DNA from: a virus
DNA: 61,963 nt
Strand: one strand, 5' to 3'
Virus record (IMG/VR): IMGVR_UViG_3300036790_000395
Span: 1-61,963 of that record
This document shows positions 4,917-23,710 of the stretch, in pieces (within the stretch, counting starts at the first letter, position 1; each line of letters starts with the position of its first letter). The position numbers and the translations under genes are program-made. The notes below the pieces were generated by a model, which saw nothing but the letters and a program-made list of their open reading frames with translations, was not told the origin of the DNA and did no database searches.

Positions 4917-5185
4917 TTGAACGTCCTCATCTGCATCAGCCGCCGCTCGATATACCAGCGCGCTTTTTCGAGTTCGGTCTTCTCGTCTTCGCCGGGCTTC
5001 TTGCCCGCGCGCAGCAAATACTTCACGGCGTTGCCGGTGCTGTAATCGAGGCCGAACGCTTCGATCACGTCGATCACCTGCAGGCCCTTCGCGCCGTGGT
5101 AATGCGCCGGGTTGATCTTGTCTATCGGCGGCGGTGTCTGCTCAATCGGCGGGGGCGCGGGTGATAGGGCTTGTTCTTCCGCCAT
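4913..5185 (-). CDS. DUF3310 family protein (nucleotide-kinase-associated phage protein)
   Basis: 90 residues from the ATG for MAEEQALSP; a longer upstream frame is only read-through of the neighbour. After a Pro-rich N-terminus comes the DUF3310 signature: NPAHYHG, LQVIDVIEAFGLDYSTGNAVKYLLRAG broken here as LQVIDVIEAFGLDY then GNAVKYLLRAGKK, and KARWYIERRL. The family is common in phages near replication genes and its biochemical role is unsettled. The start overlaps the upstream stop by one base. Confidence 0.85.
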   Translation of the reverse strand: MAEEQALSPAPPPIEQTPPPIDKINPAHYHGAKGLQVIDVIEAFGLDYSTGNAVKYLLRAGKKPGEDEKTELEKARWYIERRLMQMRTFK

Positions 5186-5470: not shown

Positions 5471-6022
5471 TTCCTCACCAGACCTCAACCGGATGGATGA
5501 GAGATGAATCATTGCGAAGCATCCACACCTTGCACCGCCATAGCCCACCGGATCATTCCGAAAACCATGACCCAAACTCGCCTTACCTCACGTCTAACCG
5601 CGCCAGTCATTACCCGACCATCGCATTCCGAAGCTCGCCGAAGCAGAAATCTATAAGAGCGAAAATCCATACCGACGCCAAAGCTCGCCTGATACCGCCT
5701 GAGCTTTCCACACCCGGCCATCCTTGCCAACCGCACGTAGATTTATAAGAGCTAGAAATCCTTACCACAGCTAACCGGGCCGGAACCCACCTGATACCAG
5801 CAGTCCACTACCGACACAACCCGACACGACCGAGTGCCTGCCGCAGCACGCCGAACCATAGGAAATTTGGAATAAATAGCATTGAATCCAGACCATAGCC
5901 GTCCTTACCAGATGCGAGCTGTCCTGACCAGAGGTGTATTTGTAAAAAGAAATGCGACATATCCTCACCAAAACCGTTCCGCACCCTTTTGAAGCCTCTG
6001 CATACCCCGGCCCGCCGTACCA
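5471..6022. repeat. Non-coding region with an array of about 12 degenerate 10-bp repeats
   Basis: Between the genes ending at 6028 and starting at 5439 no convincing gene is found; frames here lack ribosome sites and family features. On the plus strand a 10-mer near RTCCTNACCA recurs at 5471, 5665, 5720, 5759, 5886, 5901, 5921 and 5961, with weaker variants (CGCCNNACCA, GCCTTACCTC) at 5580, 5849 and 6013. Several copies follow an AT-rich stretch; 5650 and 5740 share TATAAGAGC before the repeat. The spacing is irregular, 15-110 bp. Possible roles are an iteron-like origin, a multi-site operator or an RNA. Confidence 0.55.
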
Positions 6023-7653: not shown

Positions 7654-8838
7654 ATGGCTATTGAACTTTACCGGCGTCACGGCGTCTCCTGTAAGTACCC
7701 TCCCAGTCAAAGAACACGCGAACATCGAAAATGTTCGTGCCCGGTATGGGGCTTCGGCTACCTCAACGGCAAGAAGTTCGCCGATCAAACGCTGCACACC
7801 CGCATGTGGGGCGAGGCCGAGCGACTCATCGCAAGTTGGGACGAAGACCATAAGAAGGAGGAGTCCGACCGCCGCAAAACGGTGCCGGTGCCGGTAGCCA
7901 TCGAGAAGTACCTCGCGCACTGCAAGGTCGAGAACAACAACGCCGACTCGACGCTGAAGAGCTACACGAAAAGCCTCTCGCACTTCGAGAAGTTCGTCAT
8001 CGAGCAGGGCGTCAAGATGATCGCTGATGTGAACACTCAGACCATCCGCGACTTCCTCTCCACGCGCGCAGAGTACACGCCGAAGACCCGGCGCAAGGAG
8101 CTGGAGCACGTTCGCTTCTTGCTGTGGTTCTGCGTCTCGCAGGGCTGGATCGAAAACAACCCGGCATCCGGCCACGGGGAAGGGAAGAGCAAGGCGATCC
8201 GCATCAAGGTGCCGAAGGGCGGCAGCTACCAGCCCTTTACCGAGGAAGAAGTCGAGCGCTTGCTGCAAGCCGCCGAAACGATCAACAACAACAACAAGCG
8301 CTGGATCAATCGGGCGCGTCTGCGGGCGAGAGCGATGATCCTTGTGATGTGCTACTCGGGCCTGCGCATCTCGGACGTTGCAACCTTGCGGCGCGATGAA
8401 GTTCAGCCGACCGGCCTGATGAAAGATCACATGCTCGTCAAGACCAAAGTTCTGCATTGGACACGGTTCGGGGAGGATACATTGCGGGCGCTGTTGGCAC
8501 TCCCCGTCGAGAGTGAGTACTTCTTCTGGTCCGGCCCCAAGGAGTCTAAAATGACTACTTGCTGCGGAACCATGCGCCGCACGCTGTCTAGCATTGGCAA
8601 GCGGACAAGCATCGCGGTGCATCCGCATCGATTCCGCAACACCTTCTCGCTGCGGGTGATGGATGAGACCAATGATATTCGGACTCTGCAGCAATTGCTT
8701 GGTCATCAGAACCTCAGCAGCACACAAGCCTATTTGCACAACAGCACCAAGCAGGACCAACACCTGCACGACACACTGGCGAAAATCCAGCCAGGAGGAA
8801 AGGTAATCCAGATGCCGAGTAAGAGTAAATCCGCATAG
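7654..8838 (+). CDS. int: Tyrosine site-specific recombinase, phage integrase
   Basis: 394 residues. The N-terminus (RRHGVSCKYPPSQR, CSCPVWGFG) is a Cys-containing segment of the type common in Acidobacteriota integrases. A SAM-like core-binding domain covers about residues 75-160. The catalytic domain shows Arg in CYSGLRISDV, HPHRFRNTF (H-x-x-R), LLGHQNLSSTQAYLH with the second His, and the nucleophilic Tyr. It lies next to the attP-like region and is convergent with an excisionase-like gene, so it is the integrase of this temperate phage. No Shine-Dalgarno is evident just before the ATG. Confidence 0.94.
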   Translation: MAIELYRRHGVSCKYPPSQRTREHRKCSCPVWGFGYLNGKKFADQTLHTRMWGEAERLIASWDEDHKKEESDRRKTVPVPVAIEKYLAHCKVENNNADSTLKSYTKSLSHFEKFVIEQGVKMIADVNTQTIRDFLSTRAEYTPKTRRKELEHVRFLLWFCVSQGWIENNPASGHGEGKSKAIRIKVPKGGSYQPFTEEEVERLLQAAETINNNNKRWINRARLRARAMILVMCYSGLRISDVATLRRDEVQPTGLMKDHMLVKTKVLHWTRFGEDTLRALLALPVESEYFFWSGPKESKMTTCCGTMRRTLSSIGKRTSIAVHPHRFRNTFSLRVMDETNDIRTLQQLLGHQNLSSTQAYLHNSTKQDQHLHDTLAKIQPGGKVIQMPSKSKSA

Positions 8839-9114
8839 TCAGCTCGCCTTGTTCTTCAGCCGCTCGTAAACACGATTGGCTACTGATAGCGGGATGCGCA
8901 GAGAGATGCGCACCCGCTTATTTTTTGTCTTAGGCTTCGGTTTAACAACATCCGGCTCATCCACGAACAGCCCAAAGATGTAGTTCTCGCTGAACCCCCA
9001 CCGATCCGCAAGGTCTACGCATTTGAAATGCGGCTCGAAAGCGGCCTCTAGAGCGCGTCTGGTCTCGGAGCTATCCTCACTGCCCATCGGCTTTTTAGGT
9101 GTGTCGGTCATCAA
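8839..9114 (-). CDS. Excisionase-like HTH DNA-binding protein
   Basis: 91 residues. The middle (FKCVDLADRWGFSENYIFGLF) is a MerR/excisionase-type HTH followed by VDEPDVVKPK. The end, RISLRIPLSVANRVYERL, matches the RIP-x-S-V-x-x-R-V pattern of small HTH proteins that accompany integrases in Acidobacteriota-type elements. Its stop codon abuts the integrase stop, so the genes converge. Likely role: directing excision, or controlling the integrase. Confidence 0.7.
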   Translation of the reverse strand: MMTDTPKKPMGSEDSSETRRALEAAFEPHFKCVDLADRWGFSENYIFGLFVDEPDVVKPKPKTKNKRVRISLRIPLSVANRVYERLKNKAS

Positions 9115-9332
9115 TGCACCGTCCCTCCCGAACCCGTTACGCCGTACTCGACCGCGTTGCGCGTCAACCAGCGGCTCATCTCAGTCTTCGCCGGTTCGTG
9201 CTCCAGCACCCAACAGAGCGCGTTGCGCGCGCCGAGTAACAGGTCTTGCTGCTCCTTCGTCAGATCCCGGTCGCGGGCGAGGCGCGTCGAGAAGATGTCG
9301 TGCGCGCGCTGAATGTCTGCGATGTTCTTCAT
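9111..9332 (-). CDS. Small hypothetical protein
   Basis: 73 residues starting at MKNIADIQRAHDI, where GGAGAAAGG precedes the ATG; a longer frame upstream has no ribosome site. Charged helices: LARDRDLTKEQQDLLLGARN and LEHEPAKTEMSRWL. It overlaps its upstream neighbour by four bases. No family recognised. Confidence 0.65.
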   Translation of the reverse strand: MKNIADIQRAHDIFSTRLARDRDLTKEQQDLLLGARNALCWVLEHEPAKTEMSRWLTRNAVEYGVTGSGGTVH

Positions 9333-9595
9333 ACGCCTTTCTCCATCTGCCGTTTGAGCAGGCAATACATCAGAGACATGCCGACCAGCGAGATCGAGAA
9401 GTACTGTTCGGTGCGCACCTTTAAGCTCGGAGCCAGATGCTCGGCGAGGAAGGCGGCGAAATCTTGTATCGCGGGCTGCTCGCGCTGAAAGTACGCCTGA
9501 TTCAGCAGGTTGATATTCGGTATGTCGCACATCAGTTCATTCACGGTCTCGTGCGTGATACGGGGGAATACGATCTTCGCTGCCGGTTCGCTCAT
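9329..9595 (-). CDS. Small hypothetical protein
   Basis: 88 residues starting at MSEPAAKIVFPRI. The ATG overlaps the stop of the Sak4-like gene (ATGA), giving translational coupling. A weakly hydrophobic C-terminal stretch (YFSISLVGMSLMYCLL) could be a buried helix or a membrane anchor. Function unknown. Confidence 0.65.
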   Translation of the reverse strand: MSEPAAKIVFPRITHETVNELMCDIPNINLLNQAYFQREQPAIQDFAAFLAEHLAPSLKVRTEQYFSISLVGMSLMYCLLKRQMEKGV

Positions 9596-10341
9596 GCTGC
9601 CTCCCACTCTGGATAAATGTTGATCGCCAAATTGTCGAACGTGATCAGGTCGTCTACGAGCAGCTTCTCGCCGATCAGCTCGGGCGCGTCCTGGCACATC
9701 TTCACCGTCAGCCCGAATTCCTTGTTGGCGTAGGTCTGCTCGATGATCACGTTCACGTAGTAGTCGAGCTTCGACCAGCCCGCCCACTCGAACCTGCCGG
9801 TCGGCTTATCATTGCGCCAGATCTCCTTCGCCTGATGCGTAATCAGCAGGTTCTTCTCTTGCAGCGCGTTCAGGATGTCGCGCATCTCCTGATTGGCCGG
9901 GCCGCGATCACGCGGCATGATGCGCTGCGCGCGCCCGAAGTGCGCGAACTCGATGTCCTCCCACAATTGCGTGCCGGAGTCGATCATCACCGAGGCGATA
10001 TCCTTGCGCTCGGCGAACGAGAAGATGGCGTCTTTGATCGCCGTCAGGTGCTTGGTGTAGAACTCCATCGCCTGCTCGGGCTTCATCAGAGCGACCTCCA
10101 TCGGCTTGGCGTGGCGTATGAAGTCTTCTTTCGGAAAGTAGATCTTCTTACCGAGCTTCTCGTTGGCCCGCGCGATGGTGCGGCGCGTTTTGCGGTCGAG
10201 TGGGATAACGCCGATGGGCGGCGGCATGGAGGTTCCCAAGAGTGTCTTACCGCTGCCCGCTTCGCCGAAGGAGCCGATAGCCAATTTGTCGGATGGGACT
10301 TCCGACACTTCCACGAATTGCGCGCGGGCGTGCTCTTTCAT
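9592..10341 (-). CDS. Sak4-like RecA-fold ATPase (single-strand annealing recombinase)
   Basis: 249 residues. Walker A is GEAGSGKTLLG at about residue 26 and a Walker B-like strand is SVMIDSGTQLWED. A motif near LLITHQAKEIW and the overall length fit the AAA_24/Sak4 group of phage ATPases, shortened RecA-fold proteins that promote single-strand annealing with an SSB. The XPF nuclease and PD-(D/E)XK exonuclease in the same operon support a recombination role. Confidence 0.8.
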   Translation of the reverse strand: MKEHARAQFVEVSEVPSDKLAIGSFGEAGSGKTLLGTSMPPPIGVIPLDRKTRRTIARANEKLGKKIYFPKEDFIRHAKPMEVALMKPEQAMEFYTKHLTAIKDAIFSFAERKDIASVMIDSGTQLWEDIEFAHFGRAQRIMPRDRGPANQEMRDILNALQEKNLLITHQAKEIWRNDKPTGRFEWAGWSKLDYYVNVIIEQTYANKEFGLTVKMCQDAPELIGEKLLVDDLITFDNLAINIYPEWEAA

Positions 10342-19586: not shown

Positions 19587-20546
19587 CTAAAGGCTGAAAT
19601 AATCGCCAGCGTTGGCCTGCTCGCCGCTGTTGGTATAGCGCTCGGTAGTAGAAACCGAGGAGTGCCCTAAGCTCTTCTGAATCACGTCGAGCGGCGCGCC
19701 GTGCTTGCGGGCCAACTTGGCGTAGCTTCTGCGCAGATCGTGCGGCGCGCAGGTCAGGCCCGCTGAGGCAGAATGCTGCAGGACAATGTTCCAGATGCCC
19801 GAGGCGGATAAACTGGTGCCTATTCTGCCATCCGCACGGATGGAGCGGACCACTCGTCCGTTTGGATCTAGCGCATTTTTCCAGTCCAACACAATGGACA
19901 TCACCCACGCCGGAATGGCGATAGTGCGCAATCGGTTGCCTTTGCCTAGTAGATCTACGATATAGGGGCGGCCTTCGCGTTGTGCGATCTGCGACCAGTC
20001 CAATCGGGATAGCTCGTCGCGCCGGATGCCCGTTCCAAGCAATAGTGCGAGCACTGCGCGGTCGCGGCGGCCACGCAAGATGGTTGGGTCCGGGGCGTTC
20101 AGTAGTGCCTGCGCCTGCTGTTGTGCCAGCCAATTGCCCGCGCGCGTACCGCGTAACTTGCGAGCCTTGATTGTGCCGATAGAGAAGGATGTGCCGTAGT
20201 CGATCCAGCCGTGCGCGGCGCTCTGTTGTGCCAACCGTTTGCAGGCTGAGAGCGCTTGGTTGTGCGAGCTGGTCTCCTGCACGGCTGCGACGTAGTGCTC
20301 GACCGACTCGCGAGATACTACGAATCCATTAGTGCCGAGGAACTGGAGATACCCGGTCAGGTGCCGCGTGTAGACTCTACACGAGTGCGGCGACAGGCCG
20401 GAGAGAGAGGCGGCCAACACTCGTTTCTCGGTATCCCCTAGCAGCACTCGTTCTGCTGACGCAGAACTAGCGTGCTGCCAACGATGGACCTCGGCCTGCG
20501 GCCTCGGTCCAAAGCTATCCGCGATTGCGCTTAGTGCTTCTTCCAT
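19587..20546 (-). CDS. Second tyrosine recombinase (XerC/D-like)
   Basis: 319 residues, starting at MEEALSAIADSFGP, which overlaps the end of the small membrane protein gene. Core-binding domain about 45-140. Catalytic residues: Arg in GTGIRRDELSRL, Lys in LLGKGNRLR, CAPHDLRRSY (H-x-x-R), LGHSSVSTTERYT (second His and Tyr). All are present, so it should be active. A phage that already has an integrase may use this enzyme for dimer resolution, partition-related recombination or inversion. Palindrome copy 6 encodes CRVYTRHL between the two domains. Confidence 0.9.
   Translation of the reverse strand: MEEALSAIADSFGPRPQAEVHRWQHASSASAERVLLGDTEKRVLAASLSGLSPHSCRVYTRHLTGYLQFLGTNGFVVSRESVEHYVAAVQETSSHNQALSACKRLAQQSAAHGWIDYGTSFSIGTIKARKLRGTRAGNWLAQQQAQALLNAPDPTILRGRRDRAVLALLLGTGIRRDELSRLDWSQIAQREGRPYIVDLLGKGNRLRTIAIPAWVMSIVLDWKNALDPNGRVVRSIRADGRIGTSLSASGIWNIVLQHSASAGLTCAPHDLRRSYAKLARKHGAPLDVIQKSLGHSSVSTTERYTNSGEQANAGDYFSL
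20368..20382. repeat. 15-bp dispersed palindrome, copy 6 (centre C)
   Basis: GTGTAGACTCTACAC, perfect, in the N-terminal part of the second recombinase gene. Confidence 0.9.
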
Positions 20547-20659
20547 TGGTTGATGAACTCCTTCGTGTAGCCGATAACGACCGCTACCACCGTGATTCCG
20601 GCCCATAGTGCCAGCAGCGACAAAATGACGTAGACGACGATCAGGAAGATGCCGATCAT
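20531..20659 (-). CDS. Small single-span membrane protein
   Basis: 42 residues. It begins MIGIFLIVVYVILSLLALWA, then a further hydrophobic run (ITVVAVVIGY) and a charged end (TKEFINQWKKH). The whole first 30 residues are membrane-compatible, probably one or two spans. ATG sits 4 bases after the stop of the next gene upstream and is preceded by GGATAGCACT. The stop overlaps the recombinase start. Function unknown. Confidence 0.65.
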   Translation of the reverse strand: MIGIFLIVVYVILSLLALWAGITVVAVVIGYTKEFINQWKKH

Positions 20660-20663
20660 AGTG

Positions 20664-20885
20664 CTATCCGTTCATCCCGGTGCGCTGCTTTAACGCGGCA
20701 ATATCCGCGTAGAACTGCTTCAGATCGCCTTGAATCACTTCGAGCGTATGCTCGATCTTGTCGAGCCGTTTCTCCATCAGCTCGAAGCGCTTGTTGTTGA
20801 GTATTAGTGCGGTGATCGCGACGCCAGCCGTGGAACCGGCAGTCGCGACAGACGTTATGATAGCCGTTAAAATGTTTGCATCCAT
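20664..20885 (-). CDS. Membrane-anchored coiled-coil protein
   Basis: 73 residues: an N-terminal hydrophobic segment (ILTAIITSVATAGSTAGVAI then TALIL) followed by a heptad-like charged helix (LMEKRLDKIEHTLEVIQGDL). The shape resembles small phage membrane proteins used in lysis or superinfection exclusion, but the early-side position argues against lysis. The ribosome site and start codon are buried in structured RNA A (20882-20941). Confidence 0.7.
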   Translation of the reverse strand: MDANILTAIITSVATAGSTAGVAITALILNNKRFELMEKRLDKIEHTLEVIQGDLKQFYADIAALKQRTGMNG

Positions 20886-20941
20886 AGTGCCTCCATTCGA
20901 TCCAATGACAACGCCAGTGGATCTAGGTGGAGCCGCTATGG
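20882..20941 (-). ncRNA. Structured RNA motif A, sequestering the ribosome site of the 73-residue gene
   Basis: Read on the minus strand: CCAUAG, CGG, CUCCA, CCUA, a hairpin GAUCCA/UGGAUC, GAA, UGGAG, GCA, CUAUGG. P1 (CCAUAG/CUAUGG) holds the start codon and P2 (CUCCA/UGGAG) holds the Shine-Dalgarno. The unpaired bases AUAGCGG, C-Y-UAG, CGAA and GGCACUA are shared with motif B at 21853-21915, while the hairpin differs in sequence but still pairs. It is not a hammerhead, twister or pistol by my reading. Confidence 0.65.
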
Positions 20942-20942
20942 G

Positions 20943-21845
20943 CTATCGCGTATGCGCCGGGAAGCCGTAATCGAAGCCGAGCGCTTCAACGTCCCTCTTG
21001 AACTCCTCCATGAGCTTCGGTAGCCGTTCCTGCAGCTTGGCGCGCAGCTCGCGAGGTTCTACGCTGAGTTCTTCGTCGGTCGCGTCCGGCCATACGGCAG
21101 CGTGCCGCGCGTGGTCTAGCTCGCGTTTCTTGCCCTCGCTCCACGCAGTCGGGATCTCGACGAATTCAATCGTGCAGGTGTTAAGTGCCTCGGTGAATTC
21201 CTCGGCTTCGGTGCGGTCGTCGAATGGGCATTCGTGCCACTTGGTTGCCTCGTATCCCACAAGCGAGTACTTCGGTTCGAACTTGTAATTGTCGCCCGTG
21301 CGCTCTTCGTGGGCTATCGGGAATAGTTGGAACTCGCCGGTTCCGACGCGCGACTTGATGAAGTTGTAGAACTTAGTGCTCTTGATGCGGTGTGTAACGG
21401 GCACGCCGTTGAAGCGCACGCCGTAGCTGTAGCTGCTCGGCTCGCCTGCTCGGCGGCCCCATGCGTCTCTATCGGCTGCGGCGTATAGTGCGTTAGCCTC
21501 ATAGTGCATCGGTCCATCGGTAGACGTTAGGTGCCACTTCATGAACGGTCGCAGCTCGGGAAACACGAACTCGATTAGCTCGGTGATCTGCCCGCATGCG
21601 CCTCCTTCCTTAGTGCCATCGCTCACCGATCCCGTTATGCTCAGCGTGCAGTGCCCGTTCTTGCAGTCGTCATCAAATCGGATTAGGGCATTCACCCGGA
21701 TGCCGGTGCCCTTGTAAGCCCGGTATTGTGCCAATTCTCCCGTCAGATCCTTATTCGCCACGCCCCGCGAGAGGGTTAGATACTGGATCTTTCGCTCGCG
21801 GTCTTGGACGAACCGCTTCTCTGTTTTCTCTTCCATCGTCAACAT
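20943..21845 (-). CDS. Conserved phage hypothetical protein (about 300 residues)
   Basis: 300 residues from the ATG of MLTMEEKTEKRF, with AGGAGG directly before it; an ATG 24 bases upstream is less well placed. Soluble, no membrane segment. The segment MKWHLTSTDGPMHYEANALY recurs in uncharacterised phage proteins of similar size. No catalytic motif recognised. It is preceded by structured RNA B and contains several copies of the GCACTA hexamer in different frames. Confidence 0.75.
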   Translation of the reverse strand: MLTMEEKTEKRFVQDRERKIQYLTLSRGVANKDLTGELAQYRAYKGTGIRVNALIRFDDDCKNGHCTLSITGSVSDGTKEGGACGQITELIEFVFPELRPFMKWHLTSTDGPMHYEANALYAAADRDAWGRRAGEPSSYSYGVRFNGVPVTHRIKSTKFYNFIKSRVGTGEFQLFPIAHEERTGDNYKFEPKYSLVGYEATKWHECPFDDRTEAEEFTEALNTCTIEFVEIPTAWSEGKKRELDHARHAAVWPDATDEELSVEPRELRAKLQERLPKLMEEFKRDVEALGFDYGFPAHTR

Positions 21846-21852
21846 AGTGCCT

Positions 21853-21915
21853 CCTGTTAGTGCCTCCATTCGGACTGCCGACCGTGCCGACCGTCCTAAG
21901 TGGAACCGCTATAGG
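21853..21915 (-). ncRNA. Structured RNA motif B, upstream of the 300-residue gene
   Basis: Same plan as motif A: CCUAUAG with CUAACAGG (P1, imperfect), CGG, UUCCA/UGGAG (P2, with a U-G pair where A has C-G), CUUA, hairpin GGAC/GUCC where A has GAUCCA/UGGAUC, then GAA and GGCACUA. The stem changes that keep pairing, with fixed loops, argue for an RNA-level function. P2 includes the first of two GGAGG sites. It starts just after the stop of the upstream gene. Confidence 0.6.
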
Positions 21916-21916
21916 T

Positions 21917-22363
21917 TTAGCGCGCTCCGCGAGACATCTTCATCTCATCGGCATAGTGCGTATAGGCTTCGTCCTCGGTGCGCTCTATCGGGTATGAATC
22001 GAACTCATGCGGCCCGAAGTAGCTGAGCAGATCCCAATAAACGAGAGCACGTTTCATCGGTTCAGTCGATAGTGCGTCTTCTCTGTAGCTGGCCTCATCC
22101 TGCCCGCACGATTGTGCGACTTCTGTCAACTTTTCAAACCACCATTCATGTTGCGCATTGTTCTCTAACAGAACGCGATACTCATTCAACTTGGTCGCGC
22201 CTTCTGTTTTGTGCCATTGTTCGTCTGATCCAGGTTCGAACCATGTCAGCTCTGGTCCATAAACTCCTGTTGTATCGATGTAGACGAAGCCTCCACCATG
22301 CGCGATAGGATCGACATCTCCAATGTGCCCTACGCATTTCCATTCCGGTTGTTGTGTACTCAT
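21917..22363 (-). CDS. Hypothetical protein
   Basis: 148 residues starting at MSTQQPEWKCVGHIG. Acidic, with DGLY-like and Trp-rich strands (TWFEPGSDEQWHK), no membrane segment and no motif I recognise. Its ribosome site GGGAG is the 3' strand of stem I of hammerhead ribozyme 3, which lies directly upstream. Confidence 0.65.
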   Translation of the reverse strand: MSTQQPEWKCVGHIGDVDPIAHGGGFVYIDTTGVYGPELTWFEPGSDEQWHKTEGATKLNEYRVLLENNAQHEWWFEKLTEVAQSCGQDEASYREDALSTEPMKRALVYWDLLSYFGPHEFDSYPIERTEDEAYTHYADEMKMSRGAR

Positions 22364-22368
22364 AAAGT

Positions 22369-22424
22369 CTCCCGATCCGCATAGTGCGGATTTCGTCGTC
22401 TTTCAGCGGTACTCATCAGGGGAG
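22369..22424 (-). ncRNA. Hammerhead ribozyme 3 (type I), upstream of the 148-residue gene
   Basis: Minus strand: stem I CUCCC/GGGAG, core CUGAUGA (22419-22413), a weak stem II closed by G-C and U-A, GAAA (22394-22391), stem III UCCGCA/UGCGGA with loop CUA, and cleavage triplet AUC. The predicted cut lies between 22374 and 22373, just before GGGAGACUUUAUG, so cleavage would leave the Shine-Dalgarno at the very 5' end. The 5' part overlaps the end of the 61-residue gene, where CUGAUGAG is also coding, which may explain the poor stem II. Confidence 0.8.
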
Positions 22425-22588
22425 TTTAGTCGAAGCTCGAACTCAAGCTTGTGGTATGCTTCGATAGTTTGCTTTTGCAGCGGGCTATTGGGAAACTGCC
22501 TTAGTGCCAAATTTTGAAGCTTTAGGATCTTCAACTGAGTTGAATCGACACTAGCCAAGATACTTGCTACAGATCTTTTGGTTCGCAT
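22403..22588 (-). CDS. Small hypothetical protein
   Basis: 61 residues, MRTKRSVASILASVDS and a helix-rich body (LQNLALRQFPNSPLQKQTIE). It starts within the stop of the upstream gene (TAATG), so it is translationally coupled. Its last codons coincide with the conserved core of hammerhead ribozyme 3. Function unknown. Confidence 0.6.
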   Translation of the reverse strand: MRTKRSVASILASVDSTQLKILKLQNLALRQFPNSPLQKQTIEAYHKLEFELRLNSPDEYR

Positions 22589-22959
22589 TACTCTTCACTT
22601 CCATATTGCGCATCGATAACCGCGAAGTACTCATTCGATTCGAACTCTAGAATGCAGTCTGCTACACTCGGGAACTTGCGAACATCCATAGTGCGAGTTC
22701 GGGTAACCCGCTCGCCGTTCGATAGCGTCTTAGTGCGACTAAATGTTACTTCTGCATCCGCGATACTTGCATCTTGAAAGTCGCCATCATTCGTAATGTG
22801 CAACACCATATCGCGCAATGTAGGCTGACTGCCATCCGAATAGTGAGTGAACGGGTACTTTTGATTGGATGCCTTGAAGGACTTGGCGCAAGTGCAAGCA
22901 GGCATCCATATCTTACCGCCGATGATACCCGAGATAATAACTGATGTATTACTGCTCAT
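22588..22959 (-). CDS. Hypothetical protein
   Basis: 123 residues. It begins MSSNTSVIISGIIGGKIWMP, then a beta-rich body with VTFSRTKTLSNGERVTRTRT. No family recognised. The ribosome site UGGAGAG is supplied by the 3' strand of stem I of hammerhead ribozyme 2. Confidence 0.65.
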   Translation of the reverse strand: MSSNTSVIISGIIGGKIWMPACTCAKSFKASNQKYPFTHYSDGSQPTLRDMVLHITNDGDFQDASIADAEVTFSRTKTLSNGERVTRTRTMDVRKFPSVADCILEFESNEYFAVIDAQYGSEE

Positions 22960-22964
22960 ATACT

Positions 22965-23016
22965 CTCCAGACGTGCGGATCGCACGTTTCGACTCTTGTA
23001 AGTCTCATCAGTGGAG
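22965..23016 (-). ncRNA. Hammerhead ribozyme 2 (type I), upstream of the 123-residue gene
   Basis: Complete consensus on the minus strand: stem I CUCCA/UGGAG, CUGAUGA (23011-23005), stem II GACUU/GAGUC with loop ACAA, GAAA, stem III CGUGC/GCACG with loop GAUCC, and cleavage triplet GUC. All core bases are canonical. The predicted cut is between 22970 and 22969, giving an mRNA that begins UGGAGAGUAUAUG, i.e. Shine-Dalgarno at the 5' end. It starts right after the stop codon of the preceding gene. Stem I also hides the ribosome site until cleavage. Confidence 0.95.
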
Positions 23017-23281: not shown

Positions 23282-23302
23282 CTCCAGACTGCTGTTGTGG
23301 AG
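23282..23302 (-). ncRNA. Core-deleted hammerhead relic
   Basis: The minus strand keeps CUCCA, then CAACAGCAGUC, then UGGAGAG and AUG. Stem I, the end of stem III and the GUC triplet are in place, but CUGAUGA, stem II and GAAA are missing. The position (right after a TAA stop and before a start codon) is identical to ribozymes 1 and 2, so this looks like a ribozyme that lost about 30 bases of catalytic core. Confidence 0.7.
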
Positions 23303-23660: not shown

Positions 23661-23710
23661 CTCCAGACTGCCCTATGGCAGTTTCGTCCCATCAGGACTC
23701 ATCAGTGGAG
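23661..23710 (-). ncRNA. Hammerhead ribozyme 1 (type I), upstream of the 115-residue gene
   Basis: Minus strand: stem I CUCCA/UGGAG, CUGAUGA (23705-23699), stem II GUCC/GGAC with loop UGAUG, GAAA (23685-23682), stem III CUGCC/GGCAG with loop AUAG, triplet GUC. All conserved positions are present. The predicted cut is between 23666 and 23665. Stems II and III differ in sequence from ribozyme 2 yet pair fully, while core and stem I are identical: strong covariation evidence. It begins right after the TAA of the upstream gene. Confidence 0.95.

Follow-up and report, generated by a model that had tools for sequence, protein, structure and literature searches.

Between the genes of a phage operon we observed an RNA element, motif 2, whose stems covary around a fixed internal loop. 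It is situated between the stop codon of one gene and the Shine-Dalgarno sequence (SD) or start codon of the next, and at matching junctions of related phages its place is taken by other types of elements, hammerhead ribozymes among them. Motif 2 is real and, on present data, narrow in distribution. The reading that we consider somewhat better than even is that of an intercistronic hairpin which masks the ribosome site, is coupled to the upstream stop codon, and represents the non-hammerhead counterpart of the hammerheads. The window, that is, the whole stretch of 61,963 nucleotides of the virus record IMGVR_UViG_3300036790_000395, contains two copies; these and the genes they precede are as follows.

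20883..20940, minus strand: motif 2 copy A, before the 73-aa gene (descriptor match, fold, covariation); P1 20940-20936/20887-20883, P2 20932-20928/20895-20891, P3 20923-20918/20904-20899, internal loop CCTA 20927-20924 and GAA 20898-20896
21858..21913, minus strand: motif 2 copy B, before the 300-aa gene (descriptor match, fold, covariation); P1 (3 bp) 21911-21909/21860-21858, P2 21905-21901/21868-21864, P3 21896-21893/21875-21872, internal loop CTTA 21900-21897 and GAA 21871-21869
20664..20885, minus strand: 73-aa gene downstream of copy A, with a weak match to PHROG 1863
20943..21845, minus strand: 300-aa gene downstream of copy B, with relatives 37-41% identical

Copy A reads CATAG-CGG-CTCCA-CCTA-GATCCA...TGGATC-GAA-TGGAG-GCA-CTATG, its 3' end being the start codon of the 73-aa gene, and copy B reads TATAG-CGG-TTCCA-CTTA-GGAC...GTCC-GAA-TGGAG-GCA-CTA, followed by the 300-aa gene. 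The shape is a two-stem rod with a total of 17-21 bp and a 4/3 internal loop, GAA being directly 5' of UGGAG. A descriptor comprising a 5-bp P2, the loop C[CT]TA, a P3 with a minimum of 4 bp, and GAA matched the window exactly twice, at copies A and B, vs 0.04 matches expected per dinucleotide-shuffled window, and for both copies the described fold is the minimum-free-energy as well as the centroid structure (z of -3.95 and -2.81 against dinucleotide shuffles). Hence the claim of the initial annotation that the minus strand carries two copies with compensatory changes is borne out, as is its description of P2 (YUCCA/UGGAG), of the loop CYUA/GAA and of a P3 that differs between the copies yet is paired in both (GATCCA/TGGATC; GGAC/GTCC). 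The flanks it had included in the motif fared differently: AUAGCGG is indeed present in both window copies, but is common to these only, while GGCACUA was set outside motif 2, because GCACTA is a separate repeat with 22 copies on that strand and the copies in a second phage have GGTTCAC and GGTGCCC in its place. P1 has 5 bp in copy A, but only 3 bp (UAG/CUA) in copy B.

A lack of further covarying homologues had been named beforehand as the refuting outcome, and motif 2 passed this test narrowly, with two such homologues in one other phage (the L046 record, which is G001, 63 kb), each directly before an ATG:

L046 copy one: GTGTGA-GA-TTCCA-CCTA-GGAGCAG...CTGCTCC-GAA-TGGAGG-TTCACATG
L046 copy two: CGCTTCCA-CATA-GGAGCCG...CGGCTCC-GAA-TGGAGGTG-CCCATG

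The loop CNUA/GAA is common to all four copies, and the stems differ by compensatory changes. In the four-copy alignment, 90.6% of the cells are paired vs 75.5% in shuffles (none of 500 shuffles is as high), six pairs are changed on both sides vs 2.5 in shuffles, and sliding the pairing partners along the alignment abolishes the signal. With four sequences that are probably two duplicated pairs, the covariation appears good but not overwhelming. If the copies resembled each other through recent duplication only, with no selection for structure, one would expect flanks or stems shared within each phage, and these exist (AUAGCGG in the window; GGAGC..GCUCC in L046); however, the window copies differ wholly in P3 and the L046 copies in P1, yet these stems are still paired, and the two phages share the loop and the geometry, so that this explanation is already disfavoured and very improbable.

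The covariance model scores the four copies, the same ones from which it was built, at 60-73 bits, and in 824 kb of phage DNA it yielded nothing beyond them below E = 2.7. Rfam (release 15) gave no match in the window above the gathering threshold and nothing on motif 2 even at E up to 10. In a sample of 297 genomes from a single bacterial phylum, the one to which a Bryobacterales MAG belongs, neither the covariance search for motif 2 nor the hammerhead pattern gave a match; a blastn comparison of the element with 50,697 phage records was negative, and motif 2 was absent from the examined stretches of other phages with relatives of the 300-aa protein. A scan of IMG/VR with the pattern TCCACYTAG..CGAATGGA produced 76 contigs with an exact match, among them one real new phage, L046. 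The CATAG version of the scan produced 10 contigs (only L046 convincing, L106 doubtful), the TCCC/GGGAG version 25 contigs, none convincing, and a pattern of the G005 type only G005 itself; one scan of genome contigs gave 13 matches, none convincing. The best-looking of the unconvincing matches, L147, located before an Hsp20 gene, was dropped: CCTCCACATAGG together with an upstream CTTGAAA resembles a sigma-32 promoter, and therefore the 5' arm of that hairpin would not be transcribed. The idea of an RNA thermometer fell together with this candidate.

The position of the window copies relative to the adjacent genes is defined by the following features.

20943..20945, minus strand: stop codon TAG that closes the 300-aa gene, separated by 2 nt from the 5' arm of copy A
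21917..21919, minus strand: stop codon TAA that closes the 148-aa gene, separated by 3 nt from the 5' arm of copy B
21850..21855, minus strand: AGGAGG, the SD of the 300-aa gene, outside the hairpin, before the ATG at 21845

Three of the four motif 2 copies start within or right after the upstream stop codon (TAGCCCATAG.., TAAACCTATAG.., TGTGAGATTCCA), as is characteristic of a stop-coupled hairpin, and the SD-like UGGAG lies in the 3' arm. The SD and/or the AUG is paired in the stem, as in hairpins that mask ribosome sites: the SD or AUG is masked in three copies, where the predicted probability of the SD being unpaired is 0.00-0.03 (0.00 in copy A), compared with 0.28 in copy B, which is predicted to be masked in part. 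P2 had been said to mask the SD, and in copy A it does; in copy B it does not cover the working site, since a normally spaced SD (AGGAGG) lies 3' of the hairpin. The masking of the AUG by P1 in copy A holds, as the 5-bp stem CAUAG/CUAUG covers it.

If motif 2 is a masking hairpin coupled to the stop codon, it would begin at or just after the stop of one gene and end at the ribosome site of the next, which its outer stem (P1 and P2) would hide. A ribosome finishing the upstream gene would then occupy the 5' arm, the 3' arm would be released, and the downstream small gene would be translated in step with its upstream neighbour. The folding models give mixed support for such stop-dependent translation. 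When the 5' arm is held open, the modelled SD accessibility in the L046 copies increases from 0.03 to 0.62 and 0.74, the second copy being a folding test only, as no stop is really at that place; in the ribosome-at-stop model of copy A, the AUG opens from 0.00 to 0.49 and the SD stays paired (0.01). Against the coupling, the working SD of copy B lies outside the hairpin, the SD of copy A would remain paired in the model, some 70 nt separate the second L046 copy from the DUF932 stop, and there are only four strict copies in two phages, the copies within each phage being probably duplicates.

The same operon contains three type-I hammerheads and what is likely the relic of a fourth.

23661..23710, minus strand: type-I hammerhead 1, preceded by a TAA stop; the 3' strand of its stem I contains GGAG
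22965..23016, minus strand: type-I hammerhead 2, preceded by a TAA stop; the 3' strand of its stem I contains GGAG
22369..22424, minus strand: type-I hammerhead 3, with the upstream stop codon inside the ribozyme and GGAG in the 3' strand of stem I
23282..23302, minus strand: coreless stem I, CTCCA-CAACAGCAGTC-TGGAG, after a TAA stop, a likely hammerhead relic

No terminator- or promoter-like site was found between the window hammerheads and the motif 2 copies, in keeping with the earlier placement of both in one operon. The putative relic, TAACTCCA-CAACAGCAGTC-TGGAG-AG, consists of a hammerhead stem I with an SD and no core, before an ATG at about 23277.

In 21 hammerheads from five phage records (the window, G004, G013, G014, G015) the position of the in-frame stop codon of the upstream ORF was recorded; in 18 it falls within a range that reaches from 11 nt upstream of the CUGANGA core to 1 nt into it, and in two more it lies slightly further into the core. 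In most of these hammerheads stem I also contains the SD of the next gene; in G014 no SD is present in stem I, and a longer leader follows. The pattern for hammerheads with a GGAG-bearing arm was found in four contigs, including G004, which has eleven hammerhead-core matches and is a relative of G001 (their DUF932 proteins are 65% identical). In the open full-text literature we found no description of this stop-codon register of phage hammerheads, nor of a non-hammerhead element in their place.

A helicase is common to the window phage and G001-G006 (31-40%), and several of these phages have ParB-like and other replication-region genes in common as well; they therefore form one loose clade of uncultured phages, whose matching junctions can be compared. 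Behind DUF932 there is a hammerhead in G004 (with the DUF932 stop UGA inside the CUGAUGA core), CTTCA-TCA-[P3]-GAA-TGGAG in G005, motif 2 some 70 nt on in G001, and a plain hairpin in G006. In the window the 123-aa gene is led by a hammerhead, and its homologue in G005 (41% identical) by a plain hairpin; downstream of this gene lies the coreless stem I in the window and TAACTCA-CTA-GGCTACG...CGTAGCC-AA-TGGGAG in G005. Thus, an equivalent slot holds a hammerhead in one phage and motif 2 or a looser rod in another, and the suggestion of the initial annotation that the element is a riboregulator at ribosome sites in a hammerhead operon gains support from both its position and this exchange. Its other two suggestions, a protein-binding operator and an uncharacterised ribozyme, are neither borne out nor refuted. 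In phages of this clade, structured RNA is found at junction after junction directly after the stop, be it a hammerhead, a rod like motif 2 or a plain hairpin at equivalent junctions, and the exchange makes the role of the phage hammerheads directly testable. If the coreless counterpart fulfils the same function, selection may act on control of the ribosome site and not on cleavage; if motif 2 also cuts, it would be a new ribozyme.

Multiple type-I hammerheads between prophage genes are known, and the role proposed for them is to cut transcripts into mRNAs of one gene each (Perreault et al. 2011, PMC3088659). They resemble motif 2 in occupying the same junctions, in the CUCCA/UGGAG stem I with the SD in its 3' strand and in the placement of the stop codon, but motif 2 lacks the CUGANGA core, stem III and a known cleavage site. 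None of the four copies contains the core CUGANGA...GAAA, all reading CNUA...GAA, and the three stems and the UH cleavage site before the 3' strand of stem I are absent from motif 2. As a counterpart, motif 2 would share its slot, in the operon and in relatives, with type-I hammerheads having the same stem I arms, whose cleavage, by analogy with the hammerhead family, would leave the SD at the new 5' end. Motif 2 might even be a hammerhead descendant without stem III and the catalytic core; the path from CUCCA-CUGAUGAG-[II]-CGAAA-[III]-UC-UGGAG to CUCCA-CNUAG-[P3]-CGAA-UGGAG is suggestive, although unproved.

The invariant CNUA/GAA loop implies a further structural or recognition role and counts against simple masking, which needs no fixed loop; protein binding, RNase III or catalysis may therefore be involved. 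If catalysis were the case, motif 2 would be a new minimal self-cleaving ribozyme with CNUA/GAA as the active loop, freeing the SD by a cut beside GAA/UGGAG. A fixed loop with covarying stems would be expected then, as would the hammerhead slot and the CUCCA/UGGAG arms shared within the operon and clade, and the RAGATH approach reportedly uncovered new ribozyme classes through their association with hammerheads and twisters. However, only seven loop nucleotides are available, Rfam gives no match and the hammerhead core is missing. The twister-sister-like (lantern) ribozymes also have two stems around one small internal loop region, but their loop strands are GCUC^AA and GCYAG (letters taken from residue numbers in PMC11620745), and motif 2, with CNUA/GAA in all copies, has no conserved CA cleavage dinucleotide in the loop, so that this identity was ruled out. 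The loops of the G005 rods are related but not identical (CUA/AA, UCA/GAA), and such drift makes a strictly conserved active site less likely. We therefore regard self-cleavage as unlikely, and the fuller proposal, of a very small new ribozyme class that would replace hammerheads at phage gene junctions and release each cistron by cutting beside the SD, as at least as doubtful. A loop of the sarcin-ricin or loop-E type was considered from UA/GAA by eye and is not claimed.

Cleavage could also be due to a protein. The RNase III sites between T7 early genes consist of an asymmetric internal loop between two stems, each about 8-12 bp long, and are cut in the loop. Motif 2 is likewise an intercistronic rod with an asymmetric loop, and its helix length and loop geometry (17-21 bp, 4/3) would be compatible with processing in the loop that separates the cistrons. 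On the other hand, P3 of copy B has only 4 bp before a mismatch, and we know of no loop sequence that RNase III requires; we consider such a processing site rather unlikely. Alternatively, a phage or host protein bound to the CNUA/GAA loop could block the ribosome site, making motif 2 a translational operator. A fixed loop with free stems at ribosome sites would fit this, but there is no candidate binding protein, the genes downstream of motif 2 are unrelated between the window phage and L046, and the copies are sparse, which makes an operator quite improbable.

Translational-coupling hairpins of bacterial and phage operons similarly have the SD and start codon paired and the upstream stop at the 5' arm; to our knowledge, they lack a conserved internal loop and do not alternate with ribozymes, whereas motif 2 has the one and does the other. 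Another known case is the extended start-associated sequences (ESAS) of Cluster K mycobacteriophages, inverted repeats at the ribosome sites of a subset of small genes (Pope et al. 2011, PMC3203893). The link of inverted repeats to ribosome sites of small phage genes is common to both, but the ESAS arms have a conserved sequence and precede a 13-bp start sequence, while motif 2 has variable stems, a fixed loop and the SD within the stem. The 13-bp start sequence GGGATAGGAGCCC with conserved 17-bp repeats (PMC3203893) is absent at the motif 2 copies.

The 300-aa protein belongs to a widespread family with no Pfam match, its relatives being found in phages of Pseudomonas, Achromobacter and Providencia. 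Among cultured phages, the closest terminase relatives in the collection (32.7%) infect the acidobacterium Tunturiibacter, which gives no more than a hint of the host of the window phage.

Several other repeats were observed in these phages. In the window the GCACTA copies lie at 19900-22800 on the minus (coding) strand, where 0.8 are expected, with none on the other strand; they occur in all three reading frames and often as GCACTATG at start codons. In G002 (the record of L112), at 7761-10303 on the minus strand, there are 13 GCACTA (0.5 expected), all GCACTAT, also around the integrase. The repeat is perhaps a signal at the level of RNA or ssDNA. L046 carries another two-copy junction hairpin at about 5030-5085 and 5550-5601 on the plus strand, TAGTC-TGACATAY-[P3 with loop GTGACAG]-..GAGGT-GACTATG, with the stop codon in the 5' arm and the start codon beside the 3' arm; the CATGAGGTAACTTATG leader in G005 is related to it. 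Finally, the palindrome TGTAATSATTACA is repeated in at least 11 places in L046, in hammerhead stems II and III of G004 and in leaders of G005, serving also as a hairpin inside hammerheads and junction elements.
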